The notes below the pieces were generated by a model. That model saw only the letters and a list, made by a program, of their open reading frames with translations, ran no database searches and was not told the DNA's origin. The position numbers and the translations under genes are program-made. This document shows positions 31,388 through 36,346 of a stretch of 41,295 nt of DNA, one piece after another (position 1 is the first letter of the stretch; every line of letters begins with the position of its first letter). Origin of the DNA: an uncultured beta proteobacterium. GTDB lineage: Bacteria > Pseudomonadota > Gammaproteobacteria > Burkholderiales > Rhodocyclaceae. The DNA is taken from contig CAIVQO010000006.1 of assembly GCA_903908065.1 (NCBI GenBank), positions 1-41,295 on the forward strand, given 5' to 3'.

Positions 31388-32416
31388 TTATTTTCCCTTG
31401 GCCTTCAGCGCGGCATCCAGGCGCGGATAGACGCGGCGGGCGTTGCCTTCATACACCTTGTAGCGATCCGCGGCCGAGAGGTTCAGCGTCGCCTCGATGT
31501 AACGCTTGGTGTCGTCGTAGTTGTGGCCGGTCTCCGGGTCGATGCCCTTGACCGCGCCGATCATTTCCGAGGCGAACAGGATGTTGTCCACCGGGATCAC
31601 TTTCGTCAGCAGGTCGATGCCCGGCTGGTGGTAGACGCAGGTATCGAAGAACACGTTGTTCAGCAAGTGGTCGCGCAGCAGCGGCTTCTTCAGTTCCTGC
31701 GCCAGCCCGCGGTAACGGCCCCAGTGGTAGGGCGCGGCGCCACCGCCGTGCGGGATGATGAACTTGAGCTCGGGGAAATCCTTGAACAGGTCGCCCTGGA
31801 TCAGCTGCATCACGGCCGTCGTGTCGGCATTGATGTAGTGCGCGCCGGTGGTGTGGAAGCAGGCGTTGCACGAAGTCGAGACGTGGACCATGGCCGGGAT
31901 GCGATGCTCGACCATCTTTTCGTAGATCGGGTACCAGTGCCGGTCGGTCAGAGGCGGCGAGGTCCAGTGGCCGCCGGAAGGATCGGGATTGAGGTTGATG
32001 GCGACGAAGCCGTAATCCCGGACGCATTTTTCCAGCTCGGCCACGCAGGTCTTCGGGTCGACGCCGGGCGACTGCGGCAGCATCGCCGCGCCGATGAAGT
32101 TGTCGGGGAAGAGTTGCGCGACGCGGTGGCACAGCTCGTTGCAGATCGCCGCCCAGGTGCTGCTGACGTTGAAGTCGCCGATATGGTGGGCCATGAAGCT
32201 GGCCCGCGGCGAGAAGATGGTCAGGTCGGAGCCGCGCTCCTGCATCTTCTTCAGCTGGTTGGTCTCGATCGATTCGCGCAGCTCGTCGTCGCTGATTTTC
32301 AGCTCGGAGACCTTGGGCATCGCGGACGGATCCTTGATGCCGGCGATCTGGCGGTTACGCCAGTCTTCCAGCGCCTTGGGCGCAGTGGTGTAGTGGCCGT
32401 GGATGTCGATGATCAT
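31388..32416 (-). CDS. ligJ: 4-Oxalomesaconate hydratase LigJ
   Basis: A 342-residue amidohydrolase-superfamily hydratase. The metal-binding HxH is at H6 and H8 (MIIDIHGHY), with [25 protein letters not shown] and [11 protein letters not shown] supplying later metal and substrate residues. It adds water to 4-oxalomesaconate to give 4-carboxy-4-hydroxy-2-oxoadipate. This is the LigJ fold, not the unrelated GalB type. The ATG at 32416 fits the family N-terminus, and its GGAGG is seven bases upstream. That Shine-Dalgarno sequence is part of a repeat-derived hairpin. Confidence 0.93.
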
Positions 32417-32419
32417 GGT

Positions 32420-32470
32420 CAGGCCTCCTGCCGGGCCGCCCCAAGGGAGGCCTGCGCCCCCTCGGGGGGC
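32420..32470 (-). promoter_or_regulatory. Repeat-derived leader hairpin that pairs the ligJ Shine-Dalgarno
   Basis: In the ligJ sense, CAGGCCTCC (32454-32446) pairs perfectly with GGAGGCCTG (32428-32420). The second arm contains the ligJ ribosome binding site. The loop contains TTGGGGCGGCCCGGC, which is identical to the loop before the TRAP large permease. A second short hairpin, GCCCCC/GGGGGC (32456-32461 with 32465-32470), lies just upstream. No gene is present in the gap 32417-32507. Confidence 0.7.
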
Positions 32471-32507
32471 AGCGAACGAATGTGAGTGCGGGGGTGCATA
32501 TCGTCTC

Positions 32508-34293: not shown

Positions 34294-34833
34294 ATGCAGG
34301 AACCCAAGCCGGCAACGCCCTACGCCCTCAAGGACAGCTTCGGTCCCGGCGGCAACTTCCTGCTCTCGCTGTCGCGCCTGATGGCGATCATCGGCGGCCT
34401 GATCTTCGTCTTCCTGGTGTTCATGTCGGTGGTTTCCATCGTCGGTCGCAAGACATTCGACTGGGTGGTCCCGGGCGACGTCGAAATGCTGCAGATGCTT
34501 GCGGCGAGCGCCTCGGCGTCCTTTTTTCCCTATTGCCACCTGCTGCACGGCGACATCAAGGTGGACTTCTTCACCCACAACATGAAGCAGCAGACGCTGT
34601 GGGTGATCGATGCCTTCGGCTCGCTGCTGGTCGGCCTCTTCGGCGCCCTGGTGGCCTGGCGCTCCTGGGCCGGCGCGATGACCGTCAAGGAAGCCGGGGA
34701 GACCTCGATGATCCTCGCCTGGCCGGTGTGGATACCCCAGGCCTTCATGGTGCCCGGCTTCGCTTTGCTCGGCGTGGCCGGCATCTACATGTTCGTGCAC
34801 CAGCTGCGCATGGCAAAGAGGGGGAAACCATGA
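34294..34833 (+). CDS. TRAP transporter small permease (DctQ-like)
   Basis: A 179-residue protein with four hydrophobic helices (about 26-50, 65-85, 104-128 and 148-168), the layout of the DctQ subunit of TRAP carriers. The motif around SVVSIVGRKTFDWVVPGDVE is typical. It works with the large permease and the periplasmic binding protein to import an organic acid with Na+ or H+. The start is preceded by GGAGG. Given its position beside lysR and the protocatechuate genes, an aromatic acid such as 4-hydroxybenzoate or protocatechuate is a reasonable but unproven substrate. Confidence 0.9.
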   Translation: MQEPKPATPYALKDSFGPGGNFLLSLSRLMAIIGGLIFVFLVFMSVVSIVGRKTFDWVVPGDVEMLQMLAASASASFFPYCHLLHGDIKVDFFTHNMKQQTLWVIDAFGSLLVGLFGALVAWRSWAGAMTVKEAGETSMILAWPVWIPQAFMVPGFALLGVAGIYMFVHQLRMAKRGKP

Positions 34834-34859
34834 GCGCCTATCCCCCGGCCCCTGCCCCA

Positions 34860-34927
34860 CGACCGGCTTTGCACAGCCGGTCGGCTGCGGCAGCGCGGAG
34901 CAGTGCTCCGCGAATTCCTGCCTTCGC
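34860..34927. repeat. Repeat module C, copy 2, between the TRAP permease genes
   Basis: A 9-bp hairpin CGACCGGCT/AGCCGGTCG (34860-34868 with 34875-34883, loop TTGCAC) is followed by a 31-nt block, 34884-34914, identical to 7202-7232. The stem differs from the copy at 7178-7201 at several paired positions and still pairs fully. It occupies the gap 34834-35020 between two co-directional genes; no gene is seen there. Confidence 0.8.
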
Positions 34928-34987
34928 CCCGCGGAAAGGGGTGACGCAGGTTCAGCCGCGTGCGACGCGGCTTCCGGAAAATGATTC

Positions 34988-35020
34988 GCTGCCTCCTTGG
35001 GGCGGCCCGGCGGAGGCAGC
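34988..35020 (+). promoter_or_regulatory. Repeat-derived leader hairpin that pairs the TRAP large-permease Shine-Dalgarno
   Basis: GCTGCCTCC (34988-34996) pairs perfectly with GGAGGCAGC (35012-35020), which ends on the base before the ATG at 35021 and contains the ribosome binding site. The 15-nt loop TTGGGGCGGCCCGGC is identical to the core of the loop before ligJ, while the stem sequence differs. When folded, the hairpin would block ribosome entry. Confidence 0.72.
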
Positions 35021-36346
35021 ATGAGCGGCATGCAGATCGGTTTCGTGATGTTCGGCATCCTGATGGCGCTGCTGGTGGTGCGCATCCCGATCGGCATCGC
35101 CATGTTCATGGTCGGCGCCGGCGGCTACTGGTTCCTGGTCGGCGACAGCCTGCCGCTGCTGAACTCGCTGAAGAACCTGGCCTACGCCCGGCTTTCCAAC
35201 TACGACCTCGTCGTGATCCCGCTGTTCCTGCTGATGGGCCAGTTCGCCACCCATGGCGGACTGTCGAAGGCGCTGTTCCGCTTCGTCTCCTCCTTCCTCG
35301 GCCACTTCAAGGGCGGCGTGGCCATCGCCGCCATCGGCGCCTGCGCCGGCTTCGGCGCCATCTGCGGCTCCTCGCTGGCGACCGCCGCCACCATGGGCCA
35401 GGTGACGCTGCCGGAACTCAAGCGCTATGGCTATTCCGGCTCGCTGTCGACCGGTGCGCTGGCGGCCGGCGGCACGCTGGGCATCATGATCCCGCCCTCG
35501 GTGCCGCTGGTGATCTACGCCATCCTGACCCAGGAATCGATCGGCAAGCTGTTCATGGCCGCCGTGCTGCCGGGCATCATCGCCATGATCGGCTACATGA
35601 TCGTGATCCGCATCATCGTCACGCTGAATCCGGCTGCCGGCCCCGCCGGTCCCGCCACCACCTGGGGCGAAAAGTTCGCCAGCCTGCTGGCGGTGTTCCC
35701 GGTGCTGCTGGTCTTCGTCGTGGTAATCGTCGGCATCTACGGCGGCTGGGCCAACCCGACCGAGGCGGCCGCCATCGGCGCGGCGGCCTGCGGCATCCTC
35801 GCCATGATCAGCGGCGGCATGCGCTGGGACGGCATCCTCGAAAGTCTGGTCGGCACCGCCCAGGCCACGGCGATGATCTTCCTCGTCCTGCTCGGCGCCG
35901 ACATGCTCAACACCGCGCTGGCCGTGTCGCAGATGCCGGTCGAGCTGGCCACCTGGGTAAAGGAAAGCGGCCTCTCGCCGCTGCTGGTGATGGTGATGAT
36001 CCTCATCATCTACATCCTGCTCGGTTGCGTGATGGATTCGCTGGCCATGATCCTGCTCACCATCCCGATCTTCTACCCGGTGGTGATGGGCCTCGACTAC
36101 TGGGGCATGTCGCAGGGCGACAAGTCGATCTGGTTCGGCATCCTGGCGCTGATGGTGGTGGAAATCGGCCTGGTCCATCCCCCGGTGGGCATGAACGTGT
36201 ATATCATCAACCGCCTGGCCAAGGACGTGCCGCTGGTCGAGACCTTCAAGGGCGTGATGCCCTTCCTCGCCTCTGACTTCCTGCGCATTGCCCTGCTGCT
36301 GTTTTTCCCGATCATCTCGCTGTACCTGGTCAATACATTCCAATAA
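35021..36346 (+). CDS. TRAP transporter large permease (DctM-like)
   Basis: A 441-residue membrane protein with about twelve helices. DctM hallmarks are seen in YDLVVIPLFLLMGQFATHGG, ACAGFGAICGSSLATAATMG, GTLGIMIPPSVPLVIYA, NPTEAAAIGAAA and VHPPVGMNVY. ATG 35021 was chosen because it opens directly into the first helix and has a GGAGG; a GTG-like start 24 bp upstream falls within the hairpin. It is the main translocation subunit. It is separated from the small permease by a repeat-filled 187-bp gap and lies 26 bp before the binding-protein gene. Confidence 0.93.
   Translation: MSGMQIGFVMFGILMALLVVRIPIGIAMFMVGAGGYWFLVGDSLPLLNSLKNLAYARLSNYDLVVIPLFLLMGQFATHGGLSKALFRFVSSFLGHFKGGVAIAAIGACAGFGAICGSSLATAATMGQVTLPELKRYGYSGSLSTGALAAGGTLGIMIPPSVPLVIYAILTQESIGKLFMAAVLPGIIAMIGYMIVIRIIVTLNPAAGPAGPATTWGEKFASLLAVFPVLLVFVVVIVGIYGGWANPTEAAAIGAAACGILAMISGGMRWDGILESLVGTAQATAMIFLVLLGADMLNTALAVSQMPVELATWVKESGLSPLLVMVMILIIYILLGCVMDSLAMILLTIPIFYPVVMGLDYWGMSQGDKSIWFGILALMVVEIGLVHPPVGMNVYIINRLAKDVPLVETFKGVMPFLASDFLRIALLLFFPIISLYLVNTFQ

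Follow-up and report, generated by a model that had tools for sequence, protein, structure and literature searches.

In the 41,295-nucleotide stretch of DNA analysed here (the window), the hairpin that directly precedes dctM, the gene of a TRAP large permease, represents, on the evidence of sequence comparison, the 3' terminus of a mobile, dispersed element. It is in our view highly probable that this is a translated element, which settles at NTGA tetranucleotides and whose short internal frame would form a bridge handing ribosomes over to the downstream gene.

At this site dctQ, the TRAP small permease gene (34294..34833, + strand; PF04290, E 1.5e-18), ends in a TGA at 34831-34833, which belongs to the first of two ATGA copies (34830..34833, + strand); here the dctQ stop overlaps the start of a bridging frame, at the position where dctM starts in relatives with an empty site. 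The host's own Shine-Dalgarno (SD) sequence, GAGGGGG, stands ahead of this first ATG (34818..34824, + strand). The element occupies 34834..35020 (+ strand) between the two ATGA copies, as delimited by its presence or absence in relatives, in the orientation that we call type F, and the net insertion amounts to 191 bp in comparison with locus L182. The bridging ORF of 64 codons (34830..35024, + strand), for which no Pfam match was found, ends in a TGA (35022-35024) that overlaps the dctM ATG (35021-35023), and dctM itself extends over 35021..36346 (+ strand), with matches to PF06808 (E 1.7e-90) and, above cut-off, to TIGR00786. Inside the element's hairpin 1 lies an extra block (34859..34930, + strand, edges approximate), which adds about 75 nt to the common length (191 versus 116, in comparison with L003).

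The 3'-terminal hairpin of the element (34988..35020, + strand), delimited by sequence, folding and covariance, consists of GCTGCCTCC (34988-34996), TTGGGGCGGCCCGGC (34997-35011) and GGAGGCAGC (35012-35020), and its last base directly precedes the dctM ATG. The initial annotation had described a perfect 9-bp stem with its loop, ending before the ATG and carrying the ribosome binding site in its second arm, and all of this proved accurate. The predicted fold has an energy of -25.5 kcal/mol, and in it the 15-base "loop" is mostly paired itself (UUGGG/CCCGG, with a bulged C). The GGAGG motif within the 3' arm (35012..35016, + strand) is predicted to be occluded, each of its bases having an unpaired probability below 0.01 in the free transcript. 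When the 5' arm was removed in silico, two of the five GGAGG bases became mostly free; the predicted release of the SD is only partial because the other three find new partners elsewhere.

The insertion can be followed by comparison with relatives. Among 14 dctM loci, including that of the window, nine are empty, four carry a reversed element and one, the window's, carries it forward. The empty loci include relatives whose dctM proteins are 97% and 95% identical, and in the nearest relatives dctQ and dctM meet in a direct ATGA junction (...CC ATGAGCGG...) with no element between them. The count falls to 6 empty of 11 if L192-L194 (80-81% identical), three empty loci that may represent paralogues, are set aside. 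For 23 further sites, four relatives were searched for the right flanks; a script called 90 of the 115 site pairs empty, which hand correction brought to 86 of 115, as L364, L184, L186, L188 and L189 hold a copy of another size or a reversed one, while L226 is truly empty. With the two window sites included, at least one empty relative is known for 23 of 25 sites. Two pairs are particularly clean: between L379 and L280, ATCAA-ATGA-TTCGCC becomes ATCAA-ATGA-element-ATGA-TTCGCC, and L287 shows the same pattern with GTGA when compared with L357. As seen by eye, L274 differs from L399, L402, L403 and L404 by a copy lying in frame near the N-terminus, which lengthens the protein and makes L274 an exception to the usual ending of the frame at the next start.

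The N of NTGA is identical at the two ends in 33 of 43 cases (29 expected), and with agreement so near expectation a target duplication of NTGA is a candidate and not a proven feature. A duplication reaching beyond NTGA, suggested by an 8-base match in the window (CATGAGCG), was discarded, as the 43 sites display no excess identity beyond that motif. At L060 the left flank repeats the right arm and the start (GGAGGCAGCATGA), giving the impression that the arm corresponds to the host ribosome binding site. The idea drawn from this locus, that arms are copied from the target, finds no support in the window site, L280 or L287. Inspection by eye revealed no inverted-repeat ends of the DDE type.

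In the window's own family of genomes the placement of the hairpin is not random. Among 110 distinct copies, a long frame starts within 20 nt after the hairpin in 62 (background 25%), a frame on the opposite strand stops within the same distance in 43 (background 7%), and one or the other is found in 99 (background 31%), 37 having the stop only. In a wide set of 123 copies, starts are hardly above background (36, against 25%), opposite stops number 30 (7%) and either is found in 60 (30%). The expectation that copies would stand directly before start codons was thus borne out in the own family (62/110 versus 25%) but hardly in the wide set (36/123 versus 25%).

Two sub-types could be distinguished, given here in typical letters. 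Sub-type F reads along the gene as NTGA-GRRC...TCCCCC...hairpin-NTGA, and sub-type R, on the other strand, as NTGA-GCGCC-hairpin...GGGGGGAGGGTAGTCCA-NTGA; in R the hairpin follows the upstream stop and masks no SD. Not every copy is at a junction of coupled genes, as some are found within a gene or where no such pair exists. The second start has a GGAGG no more than 20 nt away in 13 of 25 F sites and 10 of 18 R sites, and in nine of the 25 F sites the 20 nt preceding it contain no motif that is SD-like or rich in G. An upstream frame of 70 codons or more terminates at the first NTGA in 37 of 43 cases; among the other NTGA of these stretches this is true of 115 of 541.

NTGA stands at both ends of 58 of the 110 copies, which represent 43 distinct sites. 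The distance from NTG to NTG is 2 mod 3 at 38 of these 43, all 38 being open up to the TGA of the second NTGA; the frame is kept at 23 of 25 F and 15 of 18 R sites, and five of the 43 are out of frame (binomial against one third, 1e-13 if the sites are independent). In-frame lengths are 107, 113, 116, 119, 122, 170, 188 and 191, and out-of-frame lengths 108, 112, 115 and 120; since the in-frame lengths vary, frame-keeping indels are implied. Lengths are partly inherited, and by distinct length the in-frame share is 8 of 12 (P 0.019). The signal lies in length, because shuffled interiors also often stay open (58% for F and 69% for R), and openness of the frame was dropped as sole proof on account of this control. 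F candidates without NTGA at both ends are distributed 7/8/7 over the three frames, a control that is only rough because some of them are reversed or second-family copies for which the wrong start was picked.

The frame count excludes 52 of the 110 copies, these 22 F candidates among them. It also excludes six of 31 R candidates (L043+, L215-, L238-, L243-, L255+ and L264-), for reasons of spurious brackets, membership of another family, previous counting as F, or CTGA; with the six restored, 26 of 31 R copies are in frame. At the bridging sites the 15-mer is translated as WGGPA (13 sites), LGRPG (10), RAAPR/AAPS (14) or PGRPK (1), that is, in four frames on both strands, the fourth frame being represented by one site. 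What is kept is therefore the bridge and no common peptide, and a peptide function was disfavoured for this reason. The reversed copy at the dctQ-dctM site of L184 also bridges, on the other strand.

The same 15-mer occurs a second time in the window (two copies when one mismatch is allowed, where shuffled sequence predicts 0.01), ahead of a gene on the - strand (31388..32416) for an amidohydrolase that we call LigJ-like, keeping the name from the initial annotation; Amidohydro_2 (PF04909, E 1.4e-59) is its only family match, with none in NCBIfam. The hairpin (32420..32454, - strand; loop 32430-32444) has different arms, CAGGCCTCC/GGAGGCCTG, and ends three bases ahead of the ATG. The shared loop was correctly noticed, and its stem does have 9 bp; a C.A mismatch separates it from the 15-mer. 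A frame of 26 codons (32419..32499, - strand), belonging to a second element family, ends in a TGA two bases before the next ATG, so that the site has the same bridging design as the dctM site from another family of elements. The locus is filled in 4 of 20 rows for this gene; two rows represent a single gene. Among second-family copies of the wide set, 7 of the 16 that have a start and a left ATG form such a bridge, but 51 of 73 have no adjoining start. This second family (32420-32499 in the window; wide loci L061-L180) has a different body with the same terminal hairpin, and was seen to be frequent in Comamonadaceae and their relatives, in many cases at a distance from start codons.

The count of two copies on which the initial annotation was built is too low. 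The window's own genome contains six exact copies of the 15-mer and 24 matches, at E up to 0.01, to a covariance model built from 46 copies. The 15-mer was found in 36 of 61 genomes searched, the own genome included, and within the genus each of 31 genomes has 2 to 29 copies; a backward control pattern was absent from these 31. A scan of species genomes returned at least 120 stretches with the 15-mer; among the 80 matches listed, most titles are Betaproteobacteria or their genera, and the few scattered ones (e.g. Streptomyces, Hymenobacter, Planctomycetota) look like chance. Order-wide, the 15-mer is present in 26 of 200 genomes; single matches outside the carriers prove little at this level, because the backward control also occurs in eight genomes, once or twice in each. 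Invariance of the 15-mer is true by construction, since copies were gathered by its exact sequence, and diverged forms exist (L341, L364).

Elements are mostly 107-122 bp long, that of the window having 191 bp. Extra blocks of about 75, 63 and 39 nt were noticed in several (the window; L050, L242 and L279; L244 and L288; L215 and L224), those of L050, L242 and L279 being similar to the block of about 75 nt in the window. The bridging frame is open despite such blocks in the bracketed L002, L050, L279, L244 and L288, and also in L215; the in-frame lengths of 170, 188 and 191 belong to copies with such blocks. In other families the 15-mer was seen repeated in tandem, about 60-111 bp apart (G119, G085, G193 and G174; L079, L073 and L134); the spacings listed for the G119 array are multiples of three, and elsewhere they often are not. 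Tandem arrays are known from the mycobacterial MIRUs.

The arms covary, as the initial annotation had supposed: of 237 copies (a set that includes orthologous copies unthinned), 44% pair perfectly over 7 bp, versus 1% when the 3' arms are dealt randomly, and two-sided changes affect 12 of 22 consensus pairs of the covariance analysis. The nature of the mismatches bears on the level at which pairing is maintained. Leaving aside 28 of the 237 copies with fewer than four of seven pairs, G.T and A.C mismatches number 11 and 17 in F, 0 and 5 in R, 1 and 2 in copies of both types, 8 and 8 in others, and 13 and 12 in the wide set. The five A.C of R would be G.U in RNA, because the R transcript is the other strand, and F and R together, in transcript sense, give 16 G.U against 17 A.C, both small numbers. 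Were pairing selected in the transcript, an excess of G.U would be expected; none is seen, and a selection for RNA pairing is not indicated. A cause at the DNA level, either hairpin recognition in mobility or template switching in replication, would fit at least as well; the latter is reported in PMC8794818 to create and maintain RNA hairpins. The hairpin module is more likely to be conserved for mobility, with its arms paired at the DNA level, than as an RNA sensor.

The initial annotation had favoured a selected RNA structure, and a cis-regulatory RNA, be it a thermometer or a protein switch, controlling dctM and the LigJ-like gene by way of the hidden SD would account for the SD being predicted shut (unpaired probability below 0.01) and for the two-sided changes at 12 of 22 consensus pairs. 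All five transition mismatches of R would be G.U in the transcript, which are too few to weigh, and against them stand the 11 G.T versus 17 A.C of F and the combined 16 G.U versus 17 A.C. We regard such a regulator as very unlikely: the element is missing from the closest dctM orthologs and reversed in others, the R sub-type masks no SD, and Rfam gave no match at gathering scores for the window and 10 loci, a loose E-value yielding sub-threshold matches only, none of them credible. Covariation thus survives from that reading, but a dedicated switch in two copies does not, given that the repeat is mobile, that 37 of 110 copies have an opposite-strand stop only and that 9 of 25 F sites lack any SD-like or G-rich motif ahead of the second start. 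A stem predicted at -25.5 kcal/mol would also make a thermometer unlikely. The remaining option offered there, that upstream ribosomes open the hairpin, agrees with the bridging frame.

A neutral intergenic repeat, with frame and position accidental by inheritance and arms maintained by template switching, would explain why A.C mismatches are as common as G.T, and can draw on the fact that GC-rich elements contain few stops (58-69% of shuffles remain open) and on the capacity of template switching to create and maintain paired arms, as far as PMC8794818 describes it. It leaves unexplained that one bridging frame is kept at 38 of 43 sites with varied lengths and in both orientations, and that coupled junctions are found at 37 of 43 sites versus 115 of 541 control NTGA, and we consider it improbable, although its template-switching part may be compatible with a translated mobile element. 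A further candidate is a derivative of the REP/RAYT or IS200/IS605 type, in which a Y1 transposase would use NTGA as cleavage tetranucleotide and the hairpin as recognition site. The terminal bulged hairpin beside a fixed short motif, the lack of excess identity past NTGA between the two ends and the presence of Y1 genes in 26 of the 31 genomes of the genus speak for this origin. However, a relaxed pattern, which, in a control run alongside the set of five, recovered the hairpin at all six positive loci, located it at none of 35 Y1 loci (30 + 5); the own genome has no Y1 match, nor have 6 of 10 carrier genomes (4 of 10 have one), and both orientations relative to the TGA occur. A Y1 transposase as mobiliser is consequently unsupported, with 0 of 35 loci linked to the hairpin and none in the own genome, and a derivative of this type seems unlikely.

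For the translated mobile element that we prefer, the following course of events can be proposed. A small non-autonomous element would insert at an NTGA, where an upstream TGA overlaps a downstream NTG, and leave NTGA standing at both ends. As the sequence shows, the upstream gene still ends at the first TGA, and the first NTG, with the host's own SD, opens a short frame through the element, ending in a TGA that overlaps the second NTG, the start of the downstream gene. Ribosomes on the bridge would unwind the terminal hairpin, terminate at ATGA and start again on dctM, probably assisted in this copy by the GGAGG of the 3' arm, and a ribosome arriving from outside would meet a closed SD. The insertion probably does little harm, as expected from an open frame that could pass ribosomes to the second gene, and the bridge has probably been kept because it makes insertion nearly harmless to the operon.

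By analogy, the betaproteobacterial element is best read as working like the mycobacterial MIRUs, which a 2025 review (PMC12548453, citing Supply et al. 1997) presents as units of apparent mobility, inserted at start codons, with an internal frame coupled to the gene at a spacing of -4 nt. To the extent that this description goes, the two are alike in mobility (23 of 25 sites with an empty relative), in the NTGA start/stop overlap (99 of 110 copies at gene boundaries) and in an internal frame that overlaps the next start by 4 nt (38 of 43 sites). MIRUs are not known to occur in more than one orientation or to have dyad symmetry, whereas the element described here comprises F and R sub-types with two strong hairpins, is betaproteobacterial, and bridges in four frames of the same DNA. 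We do not claim membership of the MIRUs, since hairpins and the two orientations differ; the likeness drawn here is one of described behaviour.

Palindromic repeats are also tolerated inside coding sequence in the case of the Rickettsia palindromic elements, but these extend the protein, whereas the frame here usually ends at the next start. REP/BIME elements with RAYT are likewise dispersed hairpin repeats at gene ends, from which the present element differs by its bridging frame and by the absence of a linked Y1 transposase in our searches. The enterobacterial RU-1/2/3 are mobile repeats of about 100-170 bp which, when located within genes, can be translated, and the abstract of PMC2759123 describes them as protein fusions, not as start/stop bridges. 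Among the matches listed in searches of the mostly non-subscription literature, no description of this betaproteobacterial element was found, and a string search with the 15-mer core and the second-family stem returned a single match, a cattle lncRNA paper.

These findings carry a warning, as a covarying hairpin over a Shine-Dalgarno sequence can be mobile DNA and not a riboregulator. The filled and empty pairs available for 23 of 25 sites allow the effects of insertion on coupling to be measured. The strategy proposed for MIRUs, a mobile repeat that spares operons because it is translatable across start/stop overlaps, would be seen in a second, distant bacterial group. More tentatively, one hairpin module on at least two bodies might have given rise to lineages that bridge in four frames and on both strands, with F insertions leading to obligatory coupling; if this is true, the gene downstream of an F-type element would be translated only via the bridge, and each insertion would rewire its operon from loose to obligatory coupling.
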